A stretch of DNA of 64,000 nt from Lepidurus packardi. Taxonomy: Eukaryota > Arthropoda > Branchiopoda > Notostraca > Triopsidae. The position numbers were made by a program, and so were the translations under genes. The DNA is taken from the NCBI GenBank assembly GCA_023053545.1, contig JAKZAN010000004.1:6262001-6326000 (forward strand), read 5' to 3'. Under the pieces are notes generated by a model that was given only the letters and a program-made list of their open reading frames with translations, was not told the DNA's origin and searched no databases. Below are positions 8,078 to 28,170 of the stretch, one piece after another; position 1 is the first letter of the stretch, and every line of letters begins with the position of its first letter.

Positions 8078-8195
8078 TTAGCTGTGCCAGTCTATGACTG
8101 GGACAGCTTATAGTATCGTACCGACTTTAGTCCGTGTTAGCTGTGCCAGTCTATGACTGGGACAGCTTATAGTATCGTACCGACTTTAGTCCGTG
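8078..8195 (+). repeat. Helentron A 5' terminus, two perfect 59-base units
   Basis: Units 8078-8136 and 8137-8195 are identical. Each begins TTAGCTGTGCCAGTCTATGA and folds as nested arms: AGCTGT pairs with ACAGCT, and CCAGTC pairs with GACTGG around a TAT loop. A single diverged start of the unit recurs at 8404-8427. The first 20 bases also recur at 21823-21842. A hairpin at a rolling-circle element end is a plausible Rep recognition site. Confidence 0.9.
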
Positions 8196-8436
8196 CTTGG
8201 GAGGGTGGGATGGTGAGCCTAGCTCTGTTCTCGCCATAAGGGGCTATAGAATTTTGGGGTGGTACCTGGGGGAGGGAGATAAGCGAATTTTACCGCCGGG
8301 CAAGAGAAGTAGCTCGGCGAAATCTGTCAGAAGAAAACTGGCCCACAACACTCGCTAGTTTATCTCGTCTACGTGGTGATCAAGATTCGTTGGGTATACG
8401 TTGTTAGCTGTGGCAGTCTATGACTGGTTTTTTAAA

Positions 8437-9003
8437 TTGTTACATTTACGGTATTTCATGTGCGAATTGCAATAATTGGAATTGTAGGAAGGAAGCGACT
8501 ATTATAATATTGCATACATACATCGTTGGATTGTAAGTACGTGTTTCTTGATATTTTGTGTAGAGCATTCATAACGTAGTTTACTTAATGTTGCTGTTTG
8601 TATTTTCAGTTTCGTCGTTTTCTTTTCAGAGCCTACGTCTAGTTGCACGTTTTGAAGGTATAGTTATTTGTATTTCTTGTTAAATTTTGCTATTAGTTGC
8701 ACGAAACGATATAATTTCATTGTTACGTTTACGGTACTATTTCATGTCCGAATTGCAATACTTGGAATTGTAGGAAGGAAGCGACTATTATTATAATATT
8801 GCATACATACATCGTTGGATTGCAAGTACGTGTTTTTTGATATTTTGTGTAGAGCATTCATAACGTAGTTTACTTAGGTTTTTCTAGCTGTTGCTGTTTG
8901 TATTTTCAGTTTCGTCGTTTTCTTTTCAGAGCCTACGTCTAGTTGCACGTTTGGAAGGTATAGTTATTTGTATTTCTGGTTACATTTTGCTATTAGTTGC
9001 ACG
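8437..9003 (+). repeat. Duplicated 5' leader of Helentron A, about 275 bases twice
   Basis: 8437-8703 and about 8719-9003 are near-identical direct repeats upstream of the Rep gene. Each contains an intron-like segment: 8533-8609 starts GTAAGTACG and ends TATTTTCAG, while 8822-8909 has the same acceptor but a GCAAGTACG donor. The duplication therefore copied a leader intron, and the second donor has changed from GT to GC. The segment likely holds the promoter and 5' untranslated region. Confidence 0.85.
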
Positions 9004-9030
9004 TTTCATTGGTAACTCTAACATTTAAAT

Positions 9031-12000
9031 ATGAGGCTCGTCTGCAAGGCTCGATATTCACAAGATTCGGTTGGTACGAGTGAAAGTCGTGGTGTACAAT
9101 GCACACCCATGGCTTTTGTTTCTATTGCATGGAGTTATTTTGTTTTCCCTGCCAATTGGATTGAGCATGACATGCACCAGATAATGTCAATTGGAGACGA
9201 GATTTATCGTACGTATAAGCACGCTCATGCATTCTTTAGCTTTTCAGAATTGCCTCGATTTGTTGGTTGTGGAGATTTAGGTGTATTAAAGACCTTTGTG
9301 CATGGTGAAGATGCTTTTGGGTTTATATGGCCATGTACAACACGTTATTGGCATTGGTCTTTGGAAGATGCAGTGAAGCTTGCGGAACACTGTGTAGGAG
9401 TGCTTTTTATTAGTTGCTCATTTTGTACTAGTATCATGGAGCGTAGTGGAAGATATTTTGTTTTTGACTCGCATGCGCGTGATGAGTTTGGTCAGCGTTG
9501 CACAAGCGGTACTGCCGTCCTGTTAGAGTTTACTTTTGATGAACTGCTTGAGTATTTACGGAGGATGTATGGTTTCAGTGGTAATCCACAGTATGATATT
9601 GTTCCTATTTGTTGTCATGAAATTCGGGGTGCACGACCGGATGATACGTTGACAACTGTAGATAAGTGCAGTCGGGTTGCATGTAATCATGTACGTGTCT
9701 CATCGGGTAATTGGACTGATCTGAATGCTATTAATATTAACCCACAATTAGTAGATGTTTCGACATCGAAATTTGATACCAAGAATAATTTGAATATTCT
9801 GAGAAAACGGAAATACGAAGTTGATGAGAGTTTAACAATAAAACATGCTAAAAAAAATAACTCTGAAGTTTCATTAAAGTATGTTGAAGTAATGGAAGAT
9901 TGTTCGAAAGATAGAAACGGTGTTTCTCCCTGCATTAATTTGGCCAAGGATCTCACAGAAACGTTACCACAGCCGTTTGCTCTGATCGTTGACGATTCAA
10001 AAGGTGATTCAAACATATCTGCATTTGATCATTCATTTTCAGGAGAAAAAGGACATGTAGAATTTGGACGCCACAAACCTGTCATTGAGAAAAAAGGTGA
10101 ACATGACCAGTTTGTTTGCGAAACGTGCCAACGAACTTTTCTTTCGCGCCGTGGTTTGAGCAGACATTTAGCATTATGTAAAGCTGGTAATTCTAGTAAA
10201 AGGACTGACTGTGTTTCATGTCATCAGCATTTTTCTTCTGTTTACAACTTTAACAGACATTTGCAAAGACGTAATTGCAATAAAGGAATAGTTGACAGCA
10301 AAATGCCTGTGATCAGTAATGTGCAAGAGTTTACATGTGAACACTGCAGCCAGGCGTTATTTTCTTCATTTAATTTACGCAGACATTTGTGTGTGTGTCC
10401 CGTTCTTTTCTCTAGTCCGTCTGTACAAGAGGTGATCAAAAGTTCGAATAACCGAACTACCAAGAATAATACTAAAGGCGAGCAGACAAGACAGGAGGGT
10501 TATCTAGAATTTAGTGTTGGTCAATCTAAGCTCCCGAGAACTACGAATTTAATGGTAAACAATATTGAAAGTACTTGTAATTCTTCCTCTGGTAGCCAGA
10601 CTAAAAATTTATTGTGCCAAGGTTGCGGTGTAGTCTTTGTTCGAGAACGAGTATTTCGAAAACATGTACGTAATTGTCGGTTTTTATCTTTCGGTGTCAC
10701 ACATTTAAAGTGCAACGATTGTAACGTACAGTTTGAAAGCGGAGACAATTTTACCAGACATTTGGTTTTATGCAAAGGTGTTGATTACGCGGAGAACTTC
10801 TATTCTCCTAGAAAATGTGACCAGTCTGTGCCCCTCAGCATTGTTTTCCTGCTCTTGCGTTACGCAACAGCTAGAGGCTTACATAACAATGAACTTGCGG
10901 ATATAGACATGATTGGAAATATCCGAAAAGTAGGCATAATTGTATACAACTTATTTGCTAATAACAATGTTCGGATATCTGTTGACAACTTTCCTAGTAA
11001 ATTTTGCATTCCTAACATCGGATTGTCTTACACGTATTTCTCAAAGGTATTGTGCACAACTGTTTCGCCTTCACAATTTAGTACCTATTTCAGTCTTTCG
11101 TTGCGCGAGGGTACTTATTTCGTTATACAATATAGGAGTTATTGCATTGCCGTCTGCAGAACAGAAGATAACGTTTTAAGCATATTTTGTAGTCACAATA
11201 GCACGCGTAGTTGTGGATCTTATTGCACGTCGTACGATAGGTGTGCCGTAATTAGGAACAGTACAGTAGCTGAATTTCCGAGTATAATACATGAATGTTT
11301 CATAGGATGGAACGATTCGAATGAATTTACGATATATTCACTAGTTTTAGCTGTGACTCCCTGCAGAATCGAAAACTGTTGTTTCCTAGCACTGGATTGT
11401 ATTGTTGACGCTAAAAGGGGATGCCTCAGTTGCTTTTCTAATGAAATCATATGTAGTTGTTCGCATGAAGGGCACCCTGAGGTCTTTTGTCATAGAAATC
11501 AAAGAACCATTGACCGTACTCGGAAGGATCTTGACTACCACAATACACTAAAATGTTTCGATACGGTTTCAATAGACAGTCGCGCGACAGAAACTTGCAC
11601 GACAACAGAGACTAAAACTGAATCCGTAGATAAAGTCATGCGAAAACTGAAAAATTTACTTGCTGAGGGAGCCGATTTTGTTTGTGGTTGTTGCTGTCAG
11701 CTATTTTTTAGACGCACTTTATGTACAGTAGAAATGTTGCGGAAAAACGTAGAACCGTTAACTGGCAAGGAAGGTCATCGTGCAAGAAATTTATTTGAAA
11801 AATGTTTCACTTCGGTATATAAACAATATGTTTGCAGAACTTGTTATAAGTATATAAAAAAAGGCGAAGTACCTCCAGTATCTGTATTAAACCAAGTTTC
11901 TTTCCCGGAAAGACCGGACGAGCTTACAGTTTTAAATGATATGGAAAGAAGGCTAGTGTCTCCCCGTCTCATGTTCTTAAAATTGCAGCCACAACGCCAG

Positions 12001-15000
12001 GGTGGGCAATCGAAACTGAAGGGAAATGTAATTAATATACCTCATGACATAGACGAAACTATAACCGAATTACCTCGCACGTTTCGTGACTTCGAGACAA
12101 TAAAAGTTGCTCTAAAAAGAAAACTAGAATATACTCGCCCTGAATTTGTGGAAACTGTACGTCCAAATCTAGTTCGTTACGCAGCAGAGTTGTTGGTAAG
12201 ACGCCCATTATTTATTGAACATGGTATTTCTTTGGCAGAAAACTGGCAGTTTGTAGCGGAAGAAGAATTGCCGCACATAAGTGCGGAAGAATGCGTAATT
12301 GACGGTAGATCAGTGCAACATGAAGATGATAAGAACACTACGTTATCACAAAACGAATTGTGTGACGGTAGTAGTGACCAAGAGGATTCTGAAGACATTG
12401 CTAGAGTAAACATGGATACTGTATTACTAAATGAAAACTTTCTTCACGGTGAGGGTGACGATGTAATTCATTCCATAGCACCCGGAGAAAACAAAAGACC
12501 ATTCGGTGTGCTTACTGATAAATACTGTGAAGAGCTGGGGTTTCCGCATATTTTCTGCGGATATGCCAGGCCCGTGTATGTTAAGAAAGACTCTAGACTA
12601 GCATCGTTGGATAATATTGATTGCAATATTGCATTACAAGGGCGCCGTTATCGTTGTCGACCGGTCTCCTATAGTTCTCTTTGCAAGGCCGAGTTACAGA
12701 ATGTTGACCGTCGTGTTGCTCAAGACGAGGTTAATATTTTCTTCAAACTCAAGAAGATACAGATTAAAAAGATAGCGGACACTATGCGTTTCGCAACACG
12801 TATTGTCAAAGGAAAGGATAGAAAACCGGGTACCACATTTAATGCTAAAATGTTTAAAAATCCAGAAATTTTGCACTCACTACAATTCGATGGAGGTTTT
12901 AATTTCTTAAGATGCGTCCGTGGATCACCTCCCTATTACCAGCGTATGTGTCATGATTTATTTGCCATGATACGTCAAGTTGGCCCACCGGCTTTTTTTC
13001 TCAGCTTTTCAGCCGCTGAAACTAGATGGTTAGAACTCTTACGCATATTAGGAAGAACAGTTGATGGTCGTTCTTATACGAAGGAAGAGCTTCTCTCGTT
13101 AACTTGGTTGGATAAGTGTCGTTTATTGAAAGACAGTGTTACCTGTGCTAGGTATTTTAACTACCGTGTAGATATACTATTACAATTTTTACGAAACTCT
13201 ACGGAACCAGTCGGTAAACTTAAAGATTATGCAATTCGCGTGGAATTTCAACAGCGCGGGTCTCCTCACATACATATGTTCGTGTGGTGTCATAATCAGC
13301 CGTGCCCCACTGATTTTCAAGACGAATTGTCGTACGAGGAAAGCTTAATCCGTTTTGTTGATTGCTACGTCACGTGCGAATTATCTGGCGCTTCAGCATC
13401 TATAGCAAAAGAAGTACAGAAACACAAGCATTCCTTTACATGTAAAGGAAAAGGTAAAAATAACAAATGTCGCTTTGGATTTCCGAAACCTCCACTGCCA
13501 TATACAATGATTTTAAAGCCATTGGATTCTGCAGAGCCGAAAGTTAAGTTACAGCAATACAGAGTTGCATGGAAAAAAGTAGAAGAAATCATGAAACTAC
13601 CCAGTGAAAACTTAACCACTTTCTCCGAATTTTTAAGCAAATGCGGATTTAATTTAGAAACCTATGTTGGTGCTTTACGATCACGTATTCCAAAGAAAAC
13701 ACTATTTCTGAAGCGTGCCCCCAATGAATGTATGATAAATGCTTTTAATCCATTACTTCTCCTGTTTTGGAATGCGAATATGGATATACAGTACGTTGAC
13801 GATGCTTACGCTGCTGCCTCCTATATTGCGAGCTACATGACCAAGTCTCAGAGAGGAATGAGTGAGACTCTTCGTAACGTAGTGCAAGAGGTACGCGACG
13901 GCAATTTTAGTATCAGAGAAAAATTCAGGATGTTGGGCAATAAATTTCTGAACTCATCAGAAGTAGGTGTACAAGAAGCTGTTTTCTTAATTCTACAATT
14001 ACCGCTGCGAAAGTTTAGCAGATCTGTCATCTTTGTAAATACGTGCGAACCTGAGGAAAGAGTCGTACTCACAAAACCTTTCGCAGTTATAGAGAAGATG
14101 AACGATGATAATGAAAACGTAATTAGTGAAAACTTCTTCGACAGATATTCTAGGAGACCTGAACACCTCAGTGATATTAGCTTGGCAGAATATTTAACTA
14201 AATACACACATGCATATGTAAAAAATTATTCGCCTGTGATCGGTAATGACGGTTATTGTCTAGAACAGGCTGAATTTTCAGATGATATGACAAGTGATAA
14301 TGAATTCGAAGACTATTCAAAAAATTGCGAGAAATCTGACAAAAACTCGCAATACACAGTTAGAACGAAACAACGCATCCTACGCTTTATGAATTATCGT
14401 CGTGAGGGTAACCCCGAGAAATATTACCACACGAAACTGATGTTATATTGGCCATGGCGAGACCACAAAGAACTGAAAGACCAAAAAACCTACGAAGCGA
14501 AGTATTTTCAGAATAACGTGTTCCGTCGTGTACTAAAAGAGCGCGACATCTATGAACCTTACAGTTCTACTGTTGACGATATTTTAGAGAAACCTCTCCA
14601 CGAGTTTTTTGATCGTAACTATTTCAGCCATATAGACTCGGAAGACGAAGAAGTAACGCAAGAGCAAGAAAATGCCCCTAATCAAATGTACGATCCCGAG
14701 TATAACTGTATGCCAATTCCAGATATAGGAAGAGACTTACCGACTTGCAGCGTTGATGATGCGGGACTAGGGAAGGCAGTAAGGGTAATAGAACATTACG
14801 GATTACAAGACGAAGAGTATTACAGTTTAATGCGTAGTCTTAATGTAGAACAACGATTATTTGTTTTAGATCTGTTATTTATGCATAAAACAAAAACTGG
14901 AAGCTATTGCAGATACCTAAGCGGTGGAGCGGGGACTGGAAAAAGTGTGGTTGTTCGAGCTATTAACGCGTGCTTAACACGGTACTATAATAAGGCTCCT

Positions 15001-16998
15001 AACTCGAATCCTGATACAAAGAAAGTTGTAATAGTAGCTTACACAGGCAAAGCAGCATTCAGTGTAGGCGGATCAACAATACACAGCACGTTTCATATTC
15101 CAGCTGGCAAAATGTTTGATGCTAACAATTCTTTTTTGTCCCTAAATTCACAAGTTCGCTCCCAATTAGCCATATTATTCCGTGACGTACAGCTTTTTAT
15201 AATAGACGAAGTTTCCATGGTTGGAATAAATATGCTTTATTATATTGATTTCCGTTTGAAAGAAATATTTGGCTGTTCCCGAATATTTGGAGGCAAATCA
15301 ATATTATGTGTCGGTGATCTCTTTCAGCTACCACCTACAAAGGCCCAGCCTATTTTCAAATATTCAAATACAGGGGCACGTTGCTTAGCCCAACATCTGT
15401 GGATAGACAACTTTAAAATTTATGAACTACAACAAATTATGCGACAAAAAGAAGACTTAAAGTTCGCCGAGCTACTGAACCGTCTACGTGAAGGAAAACA
15501 TACAAAGGAAGATACTTCCTTATTGCGTAGCCGAATTTCTCCGAAGCCCCCTCCACATATACAACGGATTAGTTACCGAAATAACGACGTTGACTGCTAC
15601 AACCAAAAAGAATGGGAAAATGCGCAAAATGATAAAATTTTAATAGTTAGTAATGATATGCCCATAAAAGGCTGTAAGGGTATCGATACAAATTCTTTAT
15701 TAAAGAAGTTACCTAATAAAACTACTAGTAGTAACAGTATTCGTTATTTATTCATAGCAATTGATTTGCCTTTTGAGTATAATATTAACTCTGACGTTAG
15801 TGATGGTATGGCGAATGGATCCGAATGTACAATTAGAAGATTACCACAAAATTTACCACCTCTAGGTAAAGACAATGTTGACGCGAATTTTAAGCACACG
15901 TGTCCTATATTACATTGTTCGAAACAGGCTCCCATTTGGGTAGAATTTAAAGACAGTTCTGTGGGTAAGCATTGCCGTGACAAATATCTACAATTATACC
16001 AACAAGACTGCACAGTTTCAAAACAATGGACACCTGTATTCCCTGTAACTTGTAGATACACGTTCCTTAGAACAGAATTCGAGCGACTCCAGTACCCGTT
16101 AAGACCTAATAGCTCAAAAACAATTCATCGTGCTCAAGGACAAACGATGGAGCAGGTGGTTGTTAACTTGGCTCACGCAACATGCAACATGCATTACGTA
16201 GCGATCAGCAGAGCCAAACGACTTGATGGCCTTTACATTGAAGATCTTAATGAATCCGGTATTAAAGTGTCTTCCGACATAAAAAATGAAGTGGATCGTC
16301 TCCGAAGCAATCCTCAAAAACTCACACTGGAGGACGTAAGATCTGTTGTTCTATCTGAAACAAAAATCGTGGCGTTCCTAAACGTCGTCTCATTACGAAA
16401 ACACATTCCCGACATTCTATGTGATCCTTTCATCGCAATGACCGCTATATTTGCCATGTGTGAAACTCGTTTATGCACAACTGATAGAGACAACGACTAT
16501 AACTTACCAGACTTCCAGTTACACCGTATGGATTTCGCTACAACTCACCAGGGTAATTCACCTTATGGAATCGTTATTTATTCCAAACTTACTGGAATTT
16601 TTACTCGTCTGTGTTCCAACAAATACCTTGAAGTAGCTACCTATCATGTTAAGGAATTACGATTAGCAGTATACGTATTATATAGACATCATGGGCACAA
16701 TATAGAAAAGTTGTACGACGCACTGGAGCAACTCGTACGAGACGTTGACAGCTCCTTTGAAAGAATTATACTTATGGGCGATTTTAATGTCAATATGCAT
16801 ACTCACACTACATACGCTGCCAAAATTGCCGACATACTCAAACCCCTGACTCTAAGACAGCATATTACTTCCTATACAACCGACTATTCATCAACGTTGG
16901 ATCATATTTACTCTAACTTACACAATCCTAAAACTGGTGTGTATGAAACATACTATTCAGATCACAAAATTATTCACATTCAATTACCTGATACTTAA
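9031..16998 (+). CDS. Helentron Rep-helicase-endonuclease with N-terminal deubiquitinase-like and zinc-finger modules
   Basis: A single 2655-codon open frame with an ATG start just after the leader. Modules in order: a herpesvirus-tegument-type (C76) cysteine protease-like domain at about 1-190, with Q11, C24 and D146-S-H148 in YFVFDSHARD; five C2H2-type fingers at 363-583; a second domain of the same fold pattern, about 590-790, with S599 and C720-S-H722 at the catalytic positions; DUF6570 at about 880-1010; Helitron Rep with H1413-I-H1415 and Y1598xxxY1602xxK1605; PIF1-like helicase with Walker A GGAGTGKS 1965-1972, D2059-E2060, and C-terminal RAQGQT and YVAISRAK motifs; EEP endonuclease with LNVVSLRKH, CETRL, GDFN 2583-2586 and SDH 2643-2645. 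Rep nicks and joins DNA and the helicase unwinds it. The endonuclease probably cuts target or element DNA. The role of the protease-like domains is unknown. No stop interrupts the frame. Confidence 0.95.
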   Translation: MRLVCKARYSQDSVGTSESRGVQCTPMAFVSIAWSYFVFPANWIEHDMHQIMSIGDEIYRTYKHAHAFFSFSELPRFVGCGDLGVLKTFVHGEDAFGFIWPCTTRYWHWSLEDAVKLAEHCVGVLFISCSFCTSIMERSGRYFVFDSHARDEFGQRCTSGTAVLLEFTFDELLEYLRRMYGFSGNPQYDIVPICCHEIRGARPDDTLTTVDKCSRVACNHVRVSSGNWTDLNAININPQLVDVSTSKFDTKNNLNILRKRKYEVDESLTIKHAKKNNSEVSLKYVEVMEDCSKDRNGVSPCINLAKDLTETLPQPFALIVDDSKGDSNISAFDHSFSGEKGHVEFGRHKPVIEKKGEHDQFVCETCQRTFLSRRGLSRHLALCKAGNSSKRTDCVSCHQHFSSVYNFNRHLQRRNCNKGIVDSKMPVISNVQEFTCEHCSQALFSSFNLRRHLCVCPVLFSSPSVQEVIKSSNNRTTKNNTKGEQTRQEGYLEFSVGQSKLPRTTNLMVNNIESTCNSSSGSQTKNLLCQGCGVVFVRERVFRKHVRNCRFLSFGVTHLKCNDCNVQFESGDNFTRHLVLCKGVDYAENFYSPRKCDQSVPLSIVFLLLRYATARGLHNNELADIDMIGNIRKVGIIVYNLFANNNVRISVDNFPSKFCIPNIGLSYTYFSKVLCTTVSPSQFSTYFSLSLREGTYFVIQYRSYCIAVCRTEDNVLSIFCSHNSTRSCGSYCTSYDRCAVIRNSTVAEFPSIIHECFIGWNDSNEFTIYSLVLAVTPCRIENCCFLALDCIVDAKRGCLSCFSNEIICSCSHEGHPEVFCHRNQRTIDRTRKDLDYHNTLKCFDTVSIDSRATETCTTTETKTESVDKVMRKLKNLLAEGADFVCGCCCQLFFRRTLCTVEMLRKNVEPLTGKEGHRARNLFEKCFTSVYKQYVCRTCYKYIKKGEVPPVSVLNQVSFPERPDELTVLNDMERRLVSPRLMFLKLQPQRQGGQSKLKGNVINIPHDIDETITELPRTFRDFETIKVALKRKLEYTRPEFVETVRPNLVRYAAELLVRRPLFIEHGISLAENWQFVAEEELPHISAEECVIDGRSVQHEDDKNTTLSQNELCDGSSDQEDSEDIARVNMDTVLLNENFLHGEGDDVIHSIAPGENKRPFGVLTDKYCEELGFPHIFCGYARPVYVKKDSRLASLDNIDCNIALQGRRYRCRPVSYSSLCKAELQNVDRRVAQDEVNIFFKLKKIQIKKIADTMRFATRIVKGKDRKPGTTFNAKMFKNPEILHSLQFDGGFNFLRCVRGSPPYYQRMCHDLFAMIRQVGPPAFFLSFSAAETRWLELLRILGRTVDGRSYTKEELLSLTWLDKCRLLKDSVTCARYFNYRVDILLQFLRNSTEPVGKLKDYAIRVEFQQRGSPHIHMFVWCHNQPCPTDFQDELSYEESLIRFVDCYVTCELSGASASIAKEVQKHKHSFTCKGKGKNNKCRFGFPKPPLPYTMILKPLDSAEPKVKLQQYRVAWKKVEEIMKLPSENLTTFSEFLSKCGFNLETYVGALRSRIPKKTLFLKRAPNECMINAFNPLLLLFWNANMDIQYVDDAYAAASYIASYMTKSQRGMSETLRNVVQEVRDGNFSIREKFRMLGNKFLNSSEVGVQEAVFLILQLPLRKFSRSVIFVNTCEPEERVVLTKPFAVIEKMNDDNENVISENFFDRYSRRPEHLSDISLAEYLTKYTHAYVKNYSPVIGNDGYCLEQAEFSDDMTSDNEFEDYSKNCEKSDKNSQYTVRTKQRILRFMNYRREGNPEKYYHTKLMLYWPWRDHKELKDQKTYEAKYFQNNVFRRVLKERDIYEPYSSTVDDILEKPLHEFFDRNYFSHIDSEDEEVTQEQENAPNQMYDPEYNCMPIPDIGRDLPTCSVDDAGLGKAVRVIEHYGLQDEEYYSLMRSLNVEQRLFVLDLLFMHKTKTGSYCRYLSGGAGTGKSVVVRAINACLTRYYNKAPNSNPDTKKVVIVAYTGKAAFSVGGSTIHSTFHIPAGKMFDANNSFLSLNSQVRSQLAILFRDVQLFIIDEVSMVGINMLYYIDFRLKEIFGCSRIFGGKSILCVGDLFQLPPTKAQPIFKYSNTGARCLAQHLWIDNFKIYELQQIMRQKEDLKFAELLNRLREGKHTKEDTSLLRSRISPKPPPHIQRISYRNNDVDCYNQKEWENAQNDKILIVSNDMPIKGCKGIDTNSLLKKLPNKTTSSNSIRYLFIAIDLPFEYNINSDVSDGMANGSECTIRRLPQNLPPLGKDNVDANFKHTCPILHCSKQAPIWVEFKDSSVGKHCRDKYLQLYQQDCTVSKQWTPVFPVTCRYTFLRTEFERLQYPLRPNSSKTIHRAQGQTMEQVVVNLAHATCNMHYVAISRAKRLDGLYIEDLNESGIKVSSDIKNEVDRLRSNPQKLTLEDVRSVVLSETKIVAFLNVVSLRKHIPDILCDPFIAMTAIFAMCETRLCTTDRDNDYNLPDFQLHRMDFATTHQGNSPYGIVIYSKLTGIFTRLCSNKYLEVATYHVKELRLAVYVLYRHHGHNIEKLYDALEQLVRDVDSSFERIILMGDFNVNMHTHTTYAAKIADILKPLTLRQHITSYTTDYSSTLDHIYSNLHNPKTGVYETYYSDHKIIHIQLPDT

Positions 16999-19800
16999 CC
17001 TCAAACTGCCAAGGACTTACACATGCATTATCAATCATATAAGAAGATGAAACATGGACGTACAAATTTAATTTATAAAATAATAAGTTTAAATATAAAT
17101 ATATTTTATGTAAACGAATGTTATGCAAGCACACGAAAACGTTTTAGAACAAAATAAACGATCAGCTGTATTTCATTCCCACAAATAAACAGTTGCTTAA
17201 TCACTCCTCTATATAACTCGGCGCTATAACTATACTGCCGCTTAACTTCTTTCTCCAGCACATTGACAACTCAACTCAGCTCCAACTCAACCGACTATCG
17301 CTTTCCACCTTCTCTTATTAACTCTTTCTGACTGACCCTCTCTTTTTCCAACTAACCACCACCAGAAAACAGTACAAAAAGGACCAATCCCCCCCCCCCC
17401 CAACTCGAAACTCCTCCATCGCCGTCCCCACACAAAAATATGTGACGTATCTGTACGTACACATAACACGAAATAAGAACACACGACAAGAGAACATCTC
17501 TCAAAATATCTAAATTCATAATAATATTTCTATCCAGTACAGTATTACACTTATTGACATTTAATCTGTCAAGTGAAATGCTTTTCATCGTAGTTTGCCC
17601 AAATACCATTCAATAAATGCTCCCTGTATATACCATACATAACACTTCCTGACATAGTATACAATACAAATTCGAAACACAGGAATCAATAATCCCGCAA
17701 TTACATTCAGTACATTTCGCGCCTTCCCAACAATTATAGGCTACTTATACGCTCGTACCCATTTTCCAACAATGGCATTTCGCTAAAAATTTCAAGACTT
17801 TTTAACCGGACCCTACTGCAGTTGGAAAACTGCAATAAATACAAGTAAGTATATATGACTTCTTATTCTTTCTAATTCTATTTTCTGAAGAAATTTACAA
17901 ATTGACTCATTTTCAGGAGACTATTCCTTTTCATTATCTTTCTTTCACAACAGAATGCAACAGTGCAGAGAGAACACAAACAATTTAGGACAACTGGAAT
18001 ATTTCTAGTTTATCAACATTCACCACTCCAAGTCCGCTTCTTTCTCATACGCGATGCTTATATTTCTGTCAAATATGAAAACCGTAGATAACTTGCTGAA
18101 CTGAGAAAAAAAATCACTTTCCTTCGTAATGTAAAAAGTGTGAAGAAAAGCTCCCAGCCCAGCATTGATAAACTACGGGAGAAGACTATCGACAAAAACT
18201 ATGGTAAAATCATTAAGAACTTTTCTATTGAAAAATTTTTACGAGCTCCCTGAAAATCTTAATTCTAATTAGAATCAACGTTTACTTTCTCTCTAGGACT
18301 AATTACGCACTTTCCCATTACGCAAGTTCTACAAGCATGCATCGCTAACACAAACCGTAACAACACCCAAACGTGCTATTTTATATCAACTTAACAAGAT
18401 CAACAAACGTCCAACATTATCAACATCCTCACTTGGAGCAGCTACAACTGAGACCGTCATTCTCTCTTACAAAAGAATGACTACTATATCCTGTCAATTA
18501 TCACCGATAAGTAATTTCTCTCCATAAATCCTGTTCGAACTAAAATGCATGCTAACTTTGACTCCCTTAGCGCTACATCGTAAAATCTTAACATAACTTC
18601 TTTCCAATCAAATCGCTTTCCTAAGTTTTTGTTAAGAGTATCATGCCACACTCTCCGTTAACGAACTCCAATTTTTGCATGCTCTCTCCGGCTTTTTATC
18701 CTATCAAAATCCTATCTTCTCCAAGAAAACAATTATTTAAACATAATCTTATCCATAGAAAAAAAAGGCGCAACATCTACCTACACTTTCTGTGTCGTAA
18801 AGTACTCACGCAATTCCACAAAGAAGATACAAACCATCTACTACCGCTCATCCTCTACGGAAAGCGAACGTATCTGCGAACGTATATGTATAACGGATAT
18901 CCAAACTTCCACGTTGTCGTTTCAATGCGATCGAGCGACACCTGCTCTTTTACATTTGAATCCACGCTTTTCTTGGTTGTTTTTTCTGTTATTTCCGCCA
19001 TTTTTATATAACCACACTAGGGGACCTTGATTATAGCATAGGATATTCGTTAAGAGATGCCATATTTTTTTTTTCTGTTCCAGTTGATTGGGAGTTTTGA
19101 ACGGCAGCTTCTCGTTTCCTTTTACTTCTTTTTTTTACTTTTTACGTCTTTTCTCGTCATTGGATTGTGTTATTTTCACGCAGGGTTTTTTACAGGTGGG
19201 AAAGTTTCTATATTCGTTTTATTGGGGAAAAAAATCCTATACCATCATCCGCAGAAAGTGCAAATGGATCCAAGTAAAACCAAGCATATATCTTACTCAC
19301 TTACAAAGCAAGATTATGTTTTTTCGGTGAAAATGGAAAACTCCAAGCATCGATTAAGGAAAATTGTATCCAAAATTTTTGCAAACAAAGCAACGATCGT
19401 CGACATTTAACCCAAGTGCCATTTCTTAACTACGTCATCCCCCAACATGACGCCCTTAAAAAACAAAACGAAAGAAACAACTCTAAAAGAACACTTTTAG
19501 GCCGCTAATAGTGGAAAGTGCAAGACATGGTACGCAAAAGAACGTGACCATCCTACCAAACTAATGAAATTTCAGAGCGTGCTTTGACACTCGAACTAAG
19601 GATGAAAATTTTACATGACTCTCATTAACTGGTTGTACCCTTTGGAACTTTTTTCTTTGCAAATTCACCCTTTTCGTTAACAAAGGGGGGAGAGAACGAC
19701 CTGATTATTGACTGAATCTTTTTCCCTAATGACTGACCTGAACTTTTGACCGGACCTGACTTTAGGATGAATCTATTCTTCCAGACCTCAACTCTACGAT
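16999..19800. other. Helentron A spacer between Rep gene and RPA gene
   Basis: About 2.8 kb with no recognised protein. AATAAA-type signals near 17152 and 17184 could end the Rep transcript. Open frames at 18643-19011 and 19057-19410 are rich in Phe, Leu and Ser encoded by AT-rich sequence and show no motif. I do not call them genes. Confidence 0.55.
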
Positions 19801-19810
19801 CCAATCCGAG

Positions 19811-19994
19811 TATAAAAGACCTGACAAGGAACAACCAAGAACAGTCCAGTCACAATTCGCATACAGTACCTTCGAAACAGCACCCTACTACTATAAGGCA
19901 CACTGAAAAAAGTAAGTAACCATTCACTCTAAAAAAAGTACTTTAAAAAAAAACATTTACTTTTCTTAAAAAATAATGTATCGAACTTTTATAG
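19811..19994 (+). promoter_or_regulatory. TATA box and leader intron of the RPA-like gene
   Basis: TATAAAAG at 19811-19818 is placed for initiation near 19840-19850. A leader intron fits from GTAAGT at about 19912 to TTTTATAG at 19994, ten bases before the ATG. The RPA-like gene is thus probably its own RNA polymerase II unit and not part of a Rep read-through transcript. This is inference from signals only. Confidence 0.6.
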
Positions 19995-20004
19995 AGATCA
20001 ATCC

Positions 20005-21048
20005 ATGGCTTCCAACGCAAACACGGGGTTTATCCATGACATTTCTGTGCTCCGTGACAATCAGAGTCCTTCAAAATTTGGCACCAAGTCCCAGAACTTC
20101 AGATTTTTTCTGCAAACGTCCCCAACGCAATACGAGGAATGCATTTCCTTTGTCCCAGGCTCATATAACCGAATGAAGCGTTTTTTCGCCGAAAAAATAC
20201 CCATCACCATCCGCCCATCACTGACCAGCCAAAGCGAACACCAGACACCTAAAAAGAAGACAAAATACGACGTCATCAAAATTAATCAGGCATCGCAAGT
20301 GACCGAAGCAATCCCGCGTCCACCCTTTCAGTACGCTTCTCGCCCACAACAGCGAGCAACGCTTCAAACCTGCACGCAATATCCCAACGAACGTTACCTG
20401 ATCACCGTCCAGATTCAGCAAATCACGGAGGACCACAAGACCGCAACCGGCCAAATGTACAGAGAGGTCATCATTGCTGACGAAACTTCAGAAGCCAAAT
20501 TAATCTGCTGGAAAAATCAAAACATAGACTTAGTCCTGAACCAAGTGTATGACATTACGGATGTTGTCTACAATCAGGATTATAACAACATAAGTCTAAC
20601 GCAGCAGTCTCGCATCCAAGAATCGGCGACAAATCTTTCTGTACCCACACCACCAGCAACAATGGAACCACCCAGACAACTAACCTTCAGCGGAGTCGCT
20701 CACTGCAACGTGCAGATTAACCGAACTTGCCTGGCCTGTAAGAAAAAAACAGAATGGGAGGACAACAACGAAATTCTATTCCACTGCGGAAGTTGCAAAC
20801 GGATGCAGCTCAACGCCACCACACCCCCGAACATTGAAGCCACGCTTGGGTTTCAACACGAATGCGACATCCTGGAGGCTTCAATAAACAGCGAACTCCT
20901 GCAAAATATCTTCAGCAAAGCCGAAAACCAGGAGTTGACGCCACACAACACGACCGACTTGGTTATTAAGATTCTTACAGCAACGGACATCATATACACT
21001 GTGGATGAACAAAAAAAAGAAGTAGTTAACATTACCCAAAACCCTTAA
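20005..21048 (+). CDS. RPA-like single-stranded DNA-binding protein of Helentron A
   Basis: 347 codons. The middle has an OB-fold pattern like the DNA-binding domains of replication protein A 70: RYLITVQIQQI, YREVIIADETSEAKLICW and NQVYDITDVVYNQDYNNIS, at about residues 132-200. The C-terminal third resembles RPA70 domain C, with a zinc ribbon C242xxC245...C261xxC264. Helitron-class elements of several lineages carry such genes, presumably to coat displaced single strands during rolling-circle replication. It follows the Rep gene on the same strand with its own TATA box. The C-terminal half matches the fragment at 22343-22790 in element B, which confirms that it is an element gene and not a host insertion. 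Confidence 0.85.
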   Translation: MASNANTGFIHDISVLRDNQSPSKFGTKSQNFRFFLQTSPTQYEECISFVPGSYNRMKRFFAEKIPITIRPSLTSQSEHQTPKKKTKYDVIKINQASQVTEAIPRPPFQYASRPQQRATLQTCTQYPNERYLITVQIQQITEDHKTATGQMYREVIIADETSEAKLICWKNQNIDLVLNQVYDITDVVYNQDYNNISLTQQSRIQESATNLSVPTPPATMEPPRQLTFSGVAHCNVQINRTCLACKKKTEWEDNNEILFHCGSCKRMQLNATTPPNIEATLGFQHECDILEASINSELLQNIFSKAENQELTPHNTTDLVIKILTATDIIYTVDEQKKEVVNITQNP

Positions 21049-21688
21049 AGAACCCATACTAATCCCCTCCACTATTTTGTGACATTTCTGTAATCATGTA
21101 CCTGTATCCAAGACGATTTCAATATAAATGTTCCAATTAAACTGTCGTTTATTAATTATAACACTGCAATTCTTACAGGTAAAACCGCAACAGCTCCACA
21201 AGCCGCAAAACAAAGACTATATACCAAACGTGTCTACAATAAAAAAAAGGTTATTAATATACCAATTCTTATCTTACAACAAGACGCGTTCCAAAACGAA
21301 ATGCCAAAAAAATTGTCACACAAAAAAACTAAGCAATTAAAAAACTAAAGCAATAAAAACGAATACTCAAAATAATGCAATGAAACTACATTAAACAGAC
21401 AAGTGGCAAAAACGACAACAGATACACCACCTAAGGCCAACGACGTCGTACTCAAATTTGCAAATAAATACACAAATATCGCTTAACTCTCAGCTCTCTA
21501 AACACAACACTCCTTAGTAAAGCATAACGAAACTCATTACACACTAACATTCATACCCACAAAAACAAATTACCAAAACTACGCAGAAACAAATAAAACT
21601 TACCAAACAAAACAACACAGAATAATTACCAAACAGCTAATTATACACTTTTACAACAGATCAAAACCAGTGTCGATTTTCTTAACAT

Positions 21689-21842
21689 ACAAGACGACAG
21701 GTTGGACTGCCGAATAAGCTGTGACAACGGAATGTTAGTAGTGGTGAACGTGGGTAGGTGGCTGTTCTGGGTTCGTCTGTTGGTGGTCTGTTGTGGTCGA
21801 TTTTGAAATGTGTAGAGGTTTTTAGCTGTGCCAGTCTATGAT
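21689..21842 (+). repeat. Left inverted end of Helentron B
   Basis: Starts ACAAGACGACAGG and runs through CGAATAAGCTGTG to TTAGCTGTGCCAGTCTATGA at 21823-21842. The outer 35 bases mirror the right end of B. The inner 20 bases equal the first 20 of element A's 5' end rather than B's own 5' end, so the end looks mosaic. More TTAGCTGTG copies stand at about 22171 and 22194. Confidence 0.75.
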
Positions 21843-22342
21843 TTTTATTTACTGTTGATTTTTAAAGAAACGGCTTTGTTTGATGTCATGTCATTATTAT
21901 GGCATTAATTATGGTATTCTGTAAGTCCTAAAACTATTTGATATAGAGCAGAAAACGGACTTGACTGATAGGAGAAAAGATGGTCAGTAAAAATATGAAA
22001 TGTTATCAAGTTATATGTATCAAAGCATTTATCAATAGATATTAACAATTAAGTTGTATCAAAATTTATCAGAAATGCGAATTAAAATGCGAACCAAATG
22101 CGAAACGATAACGAACTGAAATTGCATGTTTTTTTTTTTTTTTTATTGGCATGTTTTAATGGTTTGCTTTTTAGCTGTGATTTTTATTAATGTTATTAGC
22201 TGTGATTATAATATCAGAAGACATTTGCGTTATTGGTAGATATATATTTTGTAAGTTTTTCGCTAATACAGTGAATTCACTATTACATGCAATGCAAATA
22301 CAAATCTAGGTTATTTAGAATAAAAATGTTGACAAAACAATA

Positions 22343-22790
22343 TTATTTTTTCTTGGTGACGTTGACGATTTCTTTTTTTTCTAGGTCTACCGTGAAGTCG
22401 AAGTCTTTTGTCGTTAGTAATTTCACGATGACAGCATTCGCAGTGTCTGGAGTCAGTTGTAGAGTTTCTTCTTGTTTGCAGAAGTCTTTTAGTATGGTTT
22501 CTGTCATCGATGCTTCGATAATGTTATTATCGTTGAAGAAACCGACTGTGCCTTGGAAAGTTAGTGGAGTCGTTTGTCTAAGTTGAATTTTTTTGCAGTT
22601 TGTGCACGTAATGGTAGGGTCATCGTTATCTGGAATGGTCGGTTGTCGTTCTGTTTTTTTTTTGCAGGCTAGGCAGGTTTGGAAAATACCAATGTTGCAG
22701 TGGGCTATGGCTTCCAGTATGATGGGCTCCGTTGTGTCGTCTAAAATGGGTTGCTGGATGTATAGGAGTATAAGCGGCTGACTGTAGAAC
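22343..22790 (-). pseudogene. RPA-like protein fragment of Helentron B
   Basis: Read on the minus strand, this frame gives IAHCNIGIFQTCLACKKK, then CTNCKK, GFFNDNNIIEASMTE, LTPDTANAVIVKLL and FTVDLEKKEIVNVTKKK followed by TAA at 22343-22345. It aligns end to end with the last 140 or so residues of the intact RPA-like gene at 20005-21048, including the four zinc-ribbon cysteines. The N-terminal two thirds are absent. Its frame is shifted relative to the helicase frame that runs into it. Confidence 0.85.
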
Positions 22791-25700
22791 TAAGCACTCG
22801 CAGACTGAGGAAGATTTCAATATTCCTTTGTCTGCAACTGGTAAGTGTAAAGGTAGTTTCTTAATAATGCATTCTGACCCATTAGCCAAGCCATCATTAA
22901 CATCAGAGTTCATACTGTATTCGAAAGGCAAATCTATTGCTATATGTAAATAACGAATGCAATTGGTATTAGTAATTTTATCCGGCAGTGTGTTTAAAAG
23001 ACATTTTATATCAACGCCTTTACACCCTCTTACTGGAAGGTCGGTACTGATAATTATTGCTCTCTCTTGTTTTGCGTTTTCCCATTCCTTTTGGTTGTAG
23101 AAATCAATATCATTATTCCGGTAACTGATTCGTTGTACACAATTGGGAGACGTTGAAGTGATTCGGCTACGTAGGATAGAAATATCTTCAGGAGTTTGCT
23201 TGCCTTCTCGTAACCTGTTTAGGAGTTCCGCGAAGAGAAGGTCGTCTTTTTGACGCATGATCTGCTGTAGCTCAAACATTTTAAAGTTGTCTAACCAAAG
23301 ATGCTCAGATAAGCAGCGTGCTCCCGTATTCGAATATTTAAAAACAGGCTGAGCTTTCGTTGGTGGTAGTTGAAAGAGGTCTCCGACACACAATACTGAT
23401 TTACCTCCAAATATCTGCGACGAGCCAAAAATTTCTTTTAAGCGAAAGTCAATGTAATAAAGCATATTTATTCCTACCATAGAAATTTCGTCTATTATGA
23501 AAAGTTCTACATCGCGGAACAGTAAATATAATTCCGAGCGCACTTGAGATTGCAAACACAAAAAAGTATTATTAGCGTCGAACATTCTTCCTATAGGAAT
23601 ATGAAATGTGCTGTGTATCGTTGATCCGCCTACATTAAAAGCGGCTTTGCCAGTGTAAGCTACAATAACCACTTTCTTTGTATCGGGATTTGAGTTCGGA
23701 CCTTTGTTAAAATAACGGGTTACACATGCGTCAATCGCTCGAACAACTAAACTTTTGCCTGTTCCGGCTCCACCGCTAAGGAATCTACAATAATTGCCAG
23801 CTTTTGTTTTATGCATGTATAACAGATCTAAGACAAATAGTCGTTGTTCTATATTTAAACAACGCATCATAGAGAAATACTCCTCATCTCGTATACCATA
23901 CTTTTCGACTGACGAAGCTGTTTTACCTAAGCTCAGATCATTAGGGTGGGTATTTGGTAAATCTCTTCCTATGTCTGCTTCAGGCATGCAGTTGTACTCA
24001 GGGTCGAAAATTTGATTGGAATCAGTTTGCAATTCCTTCAGAGTTTCTTCGTCTTCCGATTCTGAACCGTTGAAAGTGTTATGATCCACTAACTCGTGTA
24101 AAGGTTTGCTCAGTATATCGTCTACAGCATCACTGCTGGGTTCAAAAAATTGGCGTTCTTTTTGAATACGGTTGAAAACATCACGCTGGAAAAATGTAGT
24201 CTCGTAAGTTTCTTGAGTTTTAAGATCATTGTGATCCCTCCATGGCCAGTACAACATGAGTTTACTATGGAAATATTTTTCAGGGTTTGTGTCACGACGG
24301 TAGTTCATGAACCTTAAGATTCGATGTTTTGTTCGTACATTATAGACCGAATGTTTCTTCTCTTTTTTGTCATTATCGAAAGACTCTTTATTGTCATCTT
24401 CAAGTTCTGATTCGCCAGAGTATTCGGTTTGTTCTATACAATAACCATCGTCACCAACAATATTGGAATCATTGTTATGATATTTATGCGTGTAGTTTGT
24501 GACATATTCTGCTAAGCTTGTGTTCTCTAGGTAGTTCGGTCTCTTCGAATATCTATCTAAAAAATTTTCAGATATAACATTTTCGTTTTCATCGTCCATT
24601 TTCTTAATGACTGCAAAAGGTTTCGAAAGAATTACTCTATCCTCAGGTTGACATGTGGGAACGAACACAACAGCCCTGCTGAATTTTCTTAAAGGCAACT
24701 GAAGAAGTAAAAAAACAGCTTCTTGCACACCAACCTCTGTGGAATTTAAGAATTTGTTGCCCACCATTCTAAACTTTTCTCTAAGCGTAAAATTTCCTTC
24801 ATGTACTTCTTTTACCACGTTACGAAGAGTTTCGCTCATACCCTTTTGCGATTTGGTCATGTAACTTGCAATATATGAGGCAGCTGCGTAAGCATCAAAT
24901 ACATACTGAATGTCCATATTTGCGTCCCAGAATTCTAGGAGTAATGGATTAAAAGCATTTACCATACATTCGTTAGGCGCACGTTTCAAGAACAATGTTG
25001 TTTTGGTAATACGTGTTCGCAAAGCACCAATATAAGTTTCTAAATTAAATCCACACTCGCACAAAAAGGAGTCAAAGGTGGCAAATGTTTCACAAGAAAG
25101 GTTCATTAATTCCTTAATTTTTTTCCAAGCAAGACTATATTTATTTATGTTGTCTTTTGGCTCGTTGGACTCGAAAGGTTTGAGCAACATTGTGTTCGGG
25201 ACGGGAGGTTTCGGGAAAGCGAAGCGGCATTTCTTGTTTTTCCCTTTTACTTTACAGGTAAATGTGTGTCTGTGTTTTTGTACTTCAATGGCCTTTTCTG
25301 TGTACGGACCAGATAATTGACAAGAAACGTACTTGTCTACATACCGGATTAAGGCTTCGTCGAACGACTGTTCATCTTGAAAATCAGCGCGTAAGGGTTG
25401 GTTATCACACCAAACGAACAAATGAATATGGGGGGAGCCACGTTGTTGAAATTCCACACGTATTGCATAATCTTTAACTTTGCCAAGTGGTTCGATTGGG
25501 TCTCTGAATAACTGTAGAAGTTTGTCTACGCGGTAATTAAAGTATCTTGCACAAGTGACGTTGTCTTTGAGTAAACGACATTTGTCTAACCATGCTAACG
25601 ATTTAAGTTCAACATCCGTGTACAAGCGTTTATCAACCGTTTTTCCTAATATTCGCAGGAGGTCAAGCCATCTAGTTTCTGCTGCTGAAAAGCTTAAAAA

Positions 25701-26990
25701 AAATGCAGGGGGTCCCAGTTGACGAATCATGGCAAATAAGTCATGGCATACGCGCTGGAAATAAGGAGGCGATCCACGTACAGATTTTAGGAAATTGAAA
25801 CCTCCGTCAAACTGCAATGAACGTAAGACTTCCGGGTTTTTCAGCATCCGTGCGTTAAAAGAAGTTCCTGGTCTTTTATCCTTAGCCTTTAAAATTCTCG
25901 TCCCGAAGCGCATAGTGTCAGCTATCTTCTTTATTTGTAGTTTCTTAACTTTGAAAAATATGTTAATTTCGTCTTGAGCAACACGACGATCGACATGTTG
26001 TAACTCAGCTTTGCAAAGAGAACTGTAAGAAACCGGTCGAGATCGAAAATGACCATTTGTATATTGATCGTTAGGATTGAGACAGTAAGCTGGTCTTGCA
26101 AAGCCACAAAAGATGTGAGGGAAGGCAAGTTCTTCGCAGTCCTTATCGCTAAGTATACCCAATGGTCGCTTGTTTTCTCCAGGTGCTATAATATGAATAA
26201 CGTCGTCACCTTCCCCATGTAAAAAATTTTCGTTCAATAATATAGTATCCATATTGACTCTAGCAATATCTTCAGAAATTTCTGTGTCACTACTATCACT
26301 GTGTGGCTTTGTTTTGGAAAATATAATAGAGTCCATTGATTCTGGATCTGATGCACCATCAGTGATGACGCTTTCTTCAACACACACTTCCGGAACATCT
26401 TCCTCTGGTACAAATTGCCAATTCTCTGCAAATGAGATATTATGTTCAATAAATAATGGACGTGTGACTAGCAGTTTAGCTGCGTTACGCACCAAGTTAG
26501 GACGAACAGTTTCTACAAACTCTGGTCGAGTATAAGTTAACTTTCTTTTCAAGGCCACTTTTATTGTTTCAAAATCTCTAAATTTTCGCGGTAATTCTGT
26601 AATGGTTTCATCAATATCATGTGGAATATTTACGACATTTCCTTTCAATTTTGACTGACCTCCTTGTCGCTGTGGTTGTAATCTTAAGAACATGAGACGA
26701 GGGGATATCAATCTTCGTTCCATAGGGTTTAAATCTTCAAGAACTTTAGGCAATTCTGGGAAGCCAACTTTATTTAGTTTTGACATTGGAGGAATTTTAC
26801 CCTTCTGCAGATATCTGAAACACGTTATGCACACGAATTCGGTGTGTATGGCTCGAAAACACGAAACAAATAACTGGCTTGCGCAAGATATGTCATTATC
26901 GTTAAGTTCATCGATGGCTGTTTGCAGTTTTTTGGCAGGAAACAATGAACGCTTAAAATGAACATTACCTGATACTCCTAAAAATTCCAA
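22626..26990 (-). pseudogene. Helentron B Rep-helicase, truncated at both ends
   Basis: About 1454 open codons on the minus strand, highly similar to residues from about 890 to about 2295 of the intact element A protein. It keeps part of DUF6570, the Rep HUH motif RGSPHIHLFVW near 25430, the tyrosine pair SYIASYMTK near 24860, Walker A GGAGTGKS near 23770 and IIDEISMVG near 23495. Similarity ends at about 22810, after LPLHLPVADKGI; the remaining codons read the RPA fragment out of frame. No ATG starts the frame: an in-frame stop lies at 27015-27017 and the first similar residues begin inside DUF6570, so the N-terminus is lost. There is no internal stop, so the deletion is young or the protein is still used as a truncated Rep. 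Confidence 0.88.
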
Positions 26991-27318
26991 AAGATAACCA
27001 GCCGGAATAATTATTCAGAAATTATCCACTTATCATACGGGAAAGAATCGTCTAATGACAATGCAAACAATGAGTTCAGTTCGCAAAGGCACTGCAAACA
27101 GTACAGTACATAATATAAAAGTAATCAGCTCACGAAGGTAACAGGAAGTGCTGAAACATATAAAATTGTTATTCATTGAATATTACCTGATACTCCAAAA
27201 AATTCAAGCCGGAATAATGATTCAGAAATTATCCAGTTACCATACGGGGAAGAATCGTCTAATGACAATGCAAACAATGAGTTCAGTTCGTTCAGTTCAG
27301 TACTGCAAACAGTACAAA
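26963..27318 (-). repeat. Imperfect tandem duplication at the 5' edge of the Helentron B frame
   Basis: 26963-27110 recurs at about 27181-27318. Both carry ATTACCTGATACTCC, GCCGGAATAAT, CAGAAATTATCCA, GAATCGTCTAATGACAATGC and ACTGCAAACAGTAC. The repeat spans the broken start of the Rep frame. A separate 38-base unit is repeated twice at about 27474-27551. Confidence 0.8.
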
Positions 27319-27952
27319 ACAAGAAACAAGTCTAATTAACATTGCAGTCACAAAAATTAGAGCAGGAGACTGCCGGATCGGAGAAAACAAAAAACAAGAA
27401 TTTTTCCAAATATCCAAGCAAGAAATCAATCGTCCAAACAGGAAAAATGTCTACCCGTTAGATATAAGATAAGAAGAAATCAGTCCACAAAACTAACGTA
27501 AGTGCTGACATAAGAAGAAATCAGTTCACAAAACTAACGTAAGTGCTGACATAAGAAATATCAGCATAGAAAGCTACCAATAAAAACAGAATACAATTTT
27601 AGCAATTGATCTTATTTTTACCTATGAGTCCTCAAAATTCAAACTCTGCACGATATAGTAAGCTTTTGTCACAGCTAATAACAAACGTTTACCAACGTTG
27701 ATCTGCTACCCTGTCCTATTGATCCTACAGACGTGACGTCACAAGCCCAAAAACTATCACGTGCTGGTACGTTCTAACCCGTTTTGTGATCCAATTTGCC
27801 CACTTCTGAGAATCTCATGAAAGGAGCACGAACGACCTGGCCGATGGCAATATGTCCTTATCTCCCACCCACCAAACCCACCCCAAAATAACACAGCCCT
27901 TATGGGAAAAACCCGAGCCAAGCTCAGCAACCCACCCTCCCACTGGCAAGGC

Positions 27953-28030
27953 TAAAGTCTGGACGATATATTAAGCTGTTGTCACAGCTAATAAAGTCTG
28001 GACGATATATTAAGCTGTTGTCACAGCTAA
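27953..28030 (-). repeat. Helentron B 5' terminus, two perfect 39-base units
   Basis: Units 27953-27991 and 27992-28030 are identical. Read on the minus strand, each begins TTAGCTGTGACAACAGCTTA, where AGCTGT pairs with ACAGCT around GACA, and ends CAGACTTTA. It corresponds to the 59-base unit of element A minus the inner CCAGTC-GACTGG arms. A diverged single copy lies at about 27645-27690, matching the internal copy at 8404 in A. The G-rich segment next to it (27840-27945) also mirrors 8196-8290. Confidence 0.88.
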
Positions 28031-28135
28031 TAATAACACACATCAACACACGCTTGACCACCGTCATTCAACTACACAGCCATCTACCAGAACCACAGAA
28101 CACCACGTCATCCACAACTCACACGGACTCCCTGG

Positions 28136-28170
28136 CACAGCTTATTCGACAGTTCATCCTGTCGTCTTGT
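28136..28170 (-). repeat. Right inverted end of Helentron B
   Basis: Read on the minus strand it starts ACAAGACGACAGG and ends CGAATAAGCTGTG. CGACAG and CTGTCG can pair as a small hairpin. It matches 21689-21723 in inverted orientation and lies about 170 bases upstream of the NFXL1 start codon. Confidence 0.8.

Follow-up and report, generated by a model that had tools for sequence, protein, structure and literature searches.

Viral tegument-like deubiquitinases (VTDs) were described as a family by Erven et al. in 2022 (PMC9741609). According to the parts of that paper drawn on here and below, most non-viral VTDs reside in Helentron-type Helitrons, and both deubiquitinase activity and a crystal structure have been demonstrated. 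The structure (PDB: 8ADD) is that of DrT1-VTD2, a ubiquitin-cleaving domain from a zebrafish Helitron in which Cys322, Asp451 and His453 are essential; mutation of Glu377, which is believed to contact the C-terminus of ubiquitin, weakens the domain, and Asp376 is also important (PMC9741609). The zebrafish Helitron VTDs react with a ubiquitin probe and prefer K48- and K63-linked di-ubiquitin, and an Asp-x-His motif, with the aspartate preceding the histidine, is the arrangement given for VTDs (PMC9741609). On the role of ubiquitin removal in transposition, the same parts of the paper offer suggestions only. The host elements take the name Helentron from their C-terminal AP endonuclease (PMC4067079, in the excerpts used throughout; see also PMC9741609).

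Here we analyse a 64,000-nucleotide stretch of the Lepidurus packardi genome (hereafter, the window), of which a preliminary description had proposed that the Rep gene of a Helentron begins with a herpesvirus-tegument-like deubiquitinase domain. This reading proves largely right, yet the combination of a VTD with a Helentron had already been published in 2022 (PMC9741609). We consider it highly probable that residues 1-198 of the encoded protein form a VTD whose catalytic residues are intact and which is fused N-terminally to the Rep-helicase-endonuclease of a recently moved Helentron, a reading drawn from sequence comparison.

The host protein and its element

The protein is encoded by a single open frame of 2655 codons at 9031-16998 on the forward strand. 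We refer to the window element and its close copies as family A, and to three related families in the same genome as B, C and D. The main features of the element and its protein are as follows.

8078-8195, + strand: 5′ element end, a T followed by TAGCTGTGCCAG (subterminal repeat), with a 59-nt unit doubled in the window copy
8079-21689, + strand: body of the family A Helentron, ends set by other copies with different flanks
10708-10764, + strand: best C2H2 zinc finger match (PF00096, E 1.7e-4, 22.3 bits, below the cut-off of 25.2)
11860-12198, + strand: DUF6570 domain, residues 944-1056 (PF20209, E 3.5e-12)
12916-13281, + strand: Helitron_like_N (Rep) domain, residues 1296-1417 (PF14214, E 3.8e-22)
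14839-15513, + strand: PIF1-like helicase domain, residues 1937-2161 (PF05970, E 1.4e-23)
16525-16965, + strand: C-terminal endonuclease/exonuclease/phosphatase-type (AP-type) endonuclease, residues 2499-2645 (PF03372, E 1.1e-5, 25.8 bits, cut-off 24.5)
20005-21048, + strand: second open frame of the element, 347 aa, possibly RPA/SSB-like (a 48% identical frame occurs in a family B copy)
21690-28029, - strand: nested family B Helentron, internally deleted and without a VTD, which splits the family A element
28030-28169, + strand: 3′ tip of the family A Helentron, ending in GTCTTG before a T (from copy comparison)

Because a Rep domain, a PIF1-like helicase domain and a C-terminal AP-type endonuclease occur in one protein, the frame at 9031-16998 encodes a Helentron Rep-helicase-endonuclease protein. 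The motifs SPHIHMFVW and YIASYMTK can be read in the frame downstream of Helitron_like_N, and a stretch rich in cysteine and histidine, judged by eye to span approximately residues 361-600, surrounds the zinc finger match.

The ends of the element were located by comparison among copies. T-TAGCTGTGCCAG follows differing flanks in all eight copies compared (L001-L008, L004 being the window), and GTCTTG before a T ends the window copy and three others (L032, L033 and L034). Near the 3′ end, CTGGCACAGCTTA (28132-28144) is a subterminal inverted repeat that mirrors the 5′ repeat and is followed by a 6-bp hairpin (28147-28164), which is weak against shuffled sequences (z -1.53; 16 of 200 shuffles fold as well). 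The element therefore carries the marks of Helentron ends, namely subterminal inverted repeats, a 3′ palindrome (albeit of weak hairpin energy) and insertion next to a T. Three of the four other family A copies fetched beyond 21 kb (L032, L033, L034) run continuously across the site of the nested family B element; the match of the fourth, L031, ends at 21645.

Some further observations concern the same element. The family A 5′ motif TTAGCTGTGCCAG recurs inside the nested family B element, at 21822. Just 5′ of the start of the large frame, at 8436-9003, lies a direct repeat of ~270-285 nt whose copies are ~91% identical, and this repeat is found in all nine family A loci compared for the 5′ part (L001-L008, including the window, and L015). 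With a two-sequence profile, the second open frame (20005-21048) weakly matched an SSB (E 0.72); when it was searched alone, PDB matches did not improve on E 0.24, and its only Pfam match, PF20452, was below cut-off (E 0.019). Its size is near that of the RPA frame of mite Helentrons, which is 358 aa (PMC4067079). An Rfam search of the window returned no match at gathering score. A search for the nematode SL1 RNA had no match in the source genome or in any of 14 control genomes, and so carries no information on the host.

An N-terminal domain of predicted VTD type

For the alignment on which the residue assignments rest, 12 regions of the genome were fetched, of which three were aligned with the window protein (family A), one for each related family: L009 (B, 59% identical), L012 (C, 40%) and L010 (D, 52%). 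L011 and L013 were left out as near-twins of L010 and L012 with the same catalytic residues, as were L014, L017 and L018, which have family B-like starts, L015, whose frame is broken within the domain, L016, in which the domain is in two pieces, and L019 and L020, which contain stops. The features of the domain are the following.

9031-9624, + strand: VTD-type (tegument-like) cysteine protease domain, residues 1-198 (phmmer, four-family alignment, profile search, Pfam)
9061-9063, + strand: Gln11, putative oxyanion residue (invariant in all four family representatives; opposite a Gln of 8ADD)
9100-9102, + strand: Cys24, predicted catalytic cysteine (invariant in all four; aligned with the 8ADD Cys that is essential for activity)
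9247-9249, + strand: Glu73, counterpart of DrT1-VTD2 Glu377 (E73-L-P invariant in all four; correspondence counted by hand from the phmmer alignment)
9466-9474, + strand: Asp146-Ser-His148, predicted catalytic Asp-x-His (invariant in all four; aligned with 8ADD)

Six of the columns invariant among the window protein and the single representatives of families B, C and D are Q11, C24, E73, D146, S147 and H148, and the window counterparts of Cys322, Asp451 and His453 of DrT1-VTD2 are C24, D146 and H148. Q11, C24 and D146-S-H148 are indeed found at the positions that the preliminary description had given them. Its start of the domain also stands, whereas the end, which it had put at base 9600, lies slightly further on, at about residue 198 (base 9624). 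An oxyanion role would fall to Gln11, and the preliminary description likened the window Gln and Cys to Gln10 and Cys23 of the cytomegalovirus protein M48.

A motif of this kind could by itself arise by chance; the homology of the domain is not attributable to chance, because a phmmer search of residues 1-220 against all PDB sequences returned 8ADD as the best match at E 2.7e-9 (residues 15-198), with the runner-up at 0.51. With the four-family profile, the PDB match to 8ADD reached E 7.7e-18; in this alignment, profile position 11 faces a Gln of 8ADD, and both the Cys and the Asp-Ser-His line up. Second in this profile search came large tegument protein entries, 6w2d and others, at E 0.086, which is not significant alone, and unrelated proteins appeared from E 0.42 onward. 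We presume 6w2d to be the large tegument protein of Epstein-Barr virus.

When the domain was scanned alone against Pfam, Herpes_teg_N (PF04843) was the top family for all four representatives. Against a cut-off of 25 bits, family C (L012) scored 25.6, D 20.4, B 17.6 and the window (A) 13.3-13.4, such that the window domain falls below the cut-off, with a match confined to residues 112-176; the family was absent from a Pfam scan of the whole 2655-aa frame at E up to 1. Placement of the window domain thus comes from 8ADD and from its relatives, its own Pfam score being under the cut-off. Searching the genome with Herpes_teg_N yielded a single place, in L029, where a family C copy scores exactly the 25-bit cut-off. 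Membership in the tegument-type deubiquitinase family, as proposed in the preliminary description, is thereby upheld, with 8ADD as the nearest solved structure and Herpes_teg_N as the leading Pfam family throughout. Profile scans for relatives outside the source genome gave 27 pattern matches in viral contigs and 9 in genome contigs, none of which was confirmed.

Copies and constraint in the genome

Residues 1-220 were searched against the whole genome (108.6 Mb), and the counts that follow are lower bounds. There were at least 51 matches, six of which contain stop codons. In at least 13, residues 1-219 or more are matched at 100% identity (rounded), and at least eight of these, the window included, lie in a frame of 2658 codons. 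At least 19 full-span matches are 59% identical (family B), with a frame of 2722 codons in at least 11 cases. Over their longest matches, the fetched pieces of family A copies are 99.7-99.98% identical to the window; because these copies are near-identical, family A appears to have moved recently.

Between families A and B, non-synonymous and synonymous differences per site are 0.249 and 0.526 in the domain, 0.474 and 0.637 in the linker, and 0.144 and 0.714 in Rep. Constraint on the domain is therefore seen between families and is weaker than that on Rep, by a rough measure with synonymous sites near saturation. The twin pairs tell a different story: L012 and L013 (family C) differ by five non-synonymous and six synonymous changes over 2195 codons, L010 and L011 (family D) by three and none over 1326 codons, and three of the eight amino-acid changes fall inside the VTD domain. 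These pairs show no constraint, which is expected of freshly moved copies, yet they lend no support either.

Synonymous differences are lowest in the VTD segment (window 9031-9630) in all three family pairs, at 0.526, 0.601 and 0.565 versus 0.637-0.740 in the other segments compared, which could reflect base composition, recombination or gene conversion. In family C (L012, L013), the VTD is present and is separated by ~180 residues from the next segment shared with family A, versus ~670 in A itself.

Family B Helentrons also contain a telomere-like tract of (TTAGG)n interspersed with TTACG, which lies downstream of the VTD, ~9.0-9.1 kb from where the domain begins. Such tracts occur at L017:9606-9675, at L030:1198-1212 and 1481-1550, and at further places in the genome. 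Among 18 distinct exact 30-base TTAGG sites, grouped by hand, 14 lie at ~9.0-9.1 kb from a VTD match, 11 of them in family B and three degenerate; contig C3 ends in (TTAGG)n. A passage of PMC7998251 describes this repeat as the telomeric repeat universal to arthropods, in keeping with an arthropod source.

A tentative second VTD-like region

Further along the same protein, behind the zinc finger match, lies a region that we tentatively regard as a degenerate second VTD.

10774-11430, + strand: second VTD-like region, residues 582-800 (tentative degenerate VTD; Ser for Cys, Asp absent, His kept)

It reads Q-S-V where the N-terminal domain has Q-C-T, and its S-H lacks the preceding Asp; the Glu is replaced by Asn or Lys. 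Despite having neither the catalytic Cys nor the catalytic Asp, nor the Glu that would bind ubiquitin, the region persists in families A, B and D (B 48% and D 37% identical to A). A genome search with it gave 40 matches; counting the window, 14 of these are 100% identical (rounded). Its bounds were chosen by eye before testing.

The statistical case for a relation to the first domain is weak. In an hmmsearch of a six-protein database, the first-VTD profile made second matches in A, B and D at i-E 0.1, 0.018 and 0.086, and none in family C. Alignment of the two regions by hhalign scored 21.4 over 124 columns (E 0.024). Sliding controls lying wholly before the region scored up to 19.9 (25 columns), and windows touching it but aligned outside it scored 20.3 and 20.6 (26 columns). 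Seven of 500 column shuffles reached 21.4, with a maximum of 26.2, and none of the shuffles scoring 19.4 or more spans 100 columns or more; the reversed alignment scored 11.9. Pfam returned no VTD for the second region of the window, its sole match being DUF4458 at E 0.0077, below cut-off, nor for that of B, which had no match at all, nor for that of D, which matched an EGF model at E 0.3. A PDB profile search with the region likewise returned no VTD, only designed proteins at E 0.37.

We envision, as a possibility to which we give rather less than even weight, that two VTDs divide their roles in this protein, with an active N-terminal domain and, behind the zinc fingers, a pseudo-deubiquitinase that would bind a partner or regulate the active domain; the inactive VTD repeats in the testis proteins of insects could have arisen from such a pseudo-deubiquitinase.

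Places resembling the second region also occur at G000:C5 near 11246025, 11339307 and 12328042. They are 25-34% identical, carry one stop each in the first piece, and lie away from the VTD matches on C5.

Proposed function and alternative readings

By analogy with the zebrafish relatives, Cys24 with Asp146/His148 would cleave ubiquitin chains, most likely those linked through K48 and K63, and Glu73 would bind the ubiquitin C-terminus. The preliminary description had pointed to ubiquitin on Rep or on host repair proteins as the possible target. Since the domain is tethered to Rep, its nearest substrates would be Rep itself or neighbours at the DNA site. More speculatively, the tethered VTD may strip ubiquitin off the transposition complex or off proteins at that site, and the complex or these proteins might thereby be spared proteasomal degradation.

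The assignment of residues 1 to ~198 has to be weighed against the proteases usually named for Helentrons. OTU proteases have been reported in these elements (PMC4067079), and 121 VTD-containing Helitrons also possess an OTU (PMC9741609), such that an OTU or a ULP/adenain cysteine protease would have been the conventional expectation. However, Pfam assigned neither OTU nor ULP to any part of the whole frame at E up to 1, nor to the domain alone at E up to 10; the PDB match is a VTD, and the Asp-x-His order is that of VTDs (PMC9741609). The comparisons support a tegument-type (VTD) cysteine protease domain, as predicted from sequence, and leave an OTU or ULP identity with a negligible chance.

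Given a VTD fold, the question becomes whether it still acts on ubiquitin. The fold might have ceased to cleave ubiquitin and persist for binding or structure alone, which is the probable state of the inactive insect VTDs: those found outside transposons lack one or more active-site residues (PMC9741609), the position of zebrafish Asp376 is, by count, a Ser in the window protein, and the close copies of families C and D reveal no constraint. Unlike the insect VTDs, however, all four family representatives retain every catalytic residue together with Glu73, and we hold such a loss of activity to be improbable. A preference for another ubiquitin-like modifier, for example NEDD8, is unlikely as well, if marginally easier to imagine: two of three zebrafish VTDs also react with NEDD8, but reaction with ubiquitin is common to all three, and NEDD8-AMC is barely cleaved by one of them (PMC9741609). 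We therefore retain a ubiquitin-directed VTD as the working interpretation of the domain.

Comparison with described systems

The published finding of a herpesvirus-type deubiquitinase on rolling-circle transposons thus gains support from another genome, in near-identical and apparently recent copies. Recent copies with intact domains offer a good setting in which to study the role of ubiquitin removal in transposition.

The window element is a further example of the VTD-carrying Helentrons already published (PMC9741609), and its closest counterparts are the zebrafish domains DrT1-VTD1, DrT1-VTD2 and DrT2-VTD, which it resembles in the domain, in the catalytic residues and in the kind of Helitron, with a C-terminal AP endonuclease. 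It differs in its genome and in the position of the domain, which occupies residues 300-520 of its protein in 8ADD and the very N-terminus in the window. Both DrT1 VTDs are active, whereas the possible second VTD of the window is degenerate, and DrT2 has an OTU (PMC9741609), whereas Pfam found none in the window frame.

In the large tegument proteins of herpesviruses (M48, UL36, BPLF1; PF04843), the Gln, the Cys and the Asp-x-His follow one another as they do in the window protein. The similarity to the Herpes_teg_N profile is weak and extends along much of the domain in the three relatives, whereas in the window it is under the cut-off and limited to the short segment given above.

With the mite and Drosophila Helentrons of PMC4067079, the window element shares a Rep/helicase/endonuclease frame, subterminal inverted repeats, a palindrome near the 3′ end, a T-rich target and a separate frame of approximately RPA size. 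Both 3′ features sit closer to the 3′ end in the window element than in the mite elements (PMC4067079): the repeat is 25 nt from it, against 38-60 nt in mites, and the palindrome 5 nt, against 8-35 nt. The excerpts of that paper mention OTU proteases and no tegument-type domain; the window element, in contrast, carries a domain of predicted tegument type at the head of its Rep-helicase-endonuclease protein.
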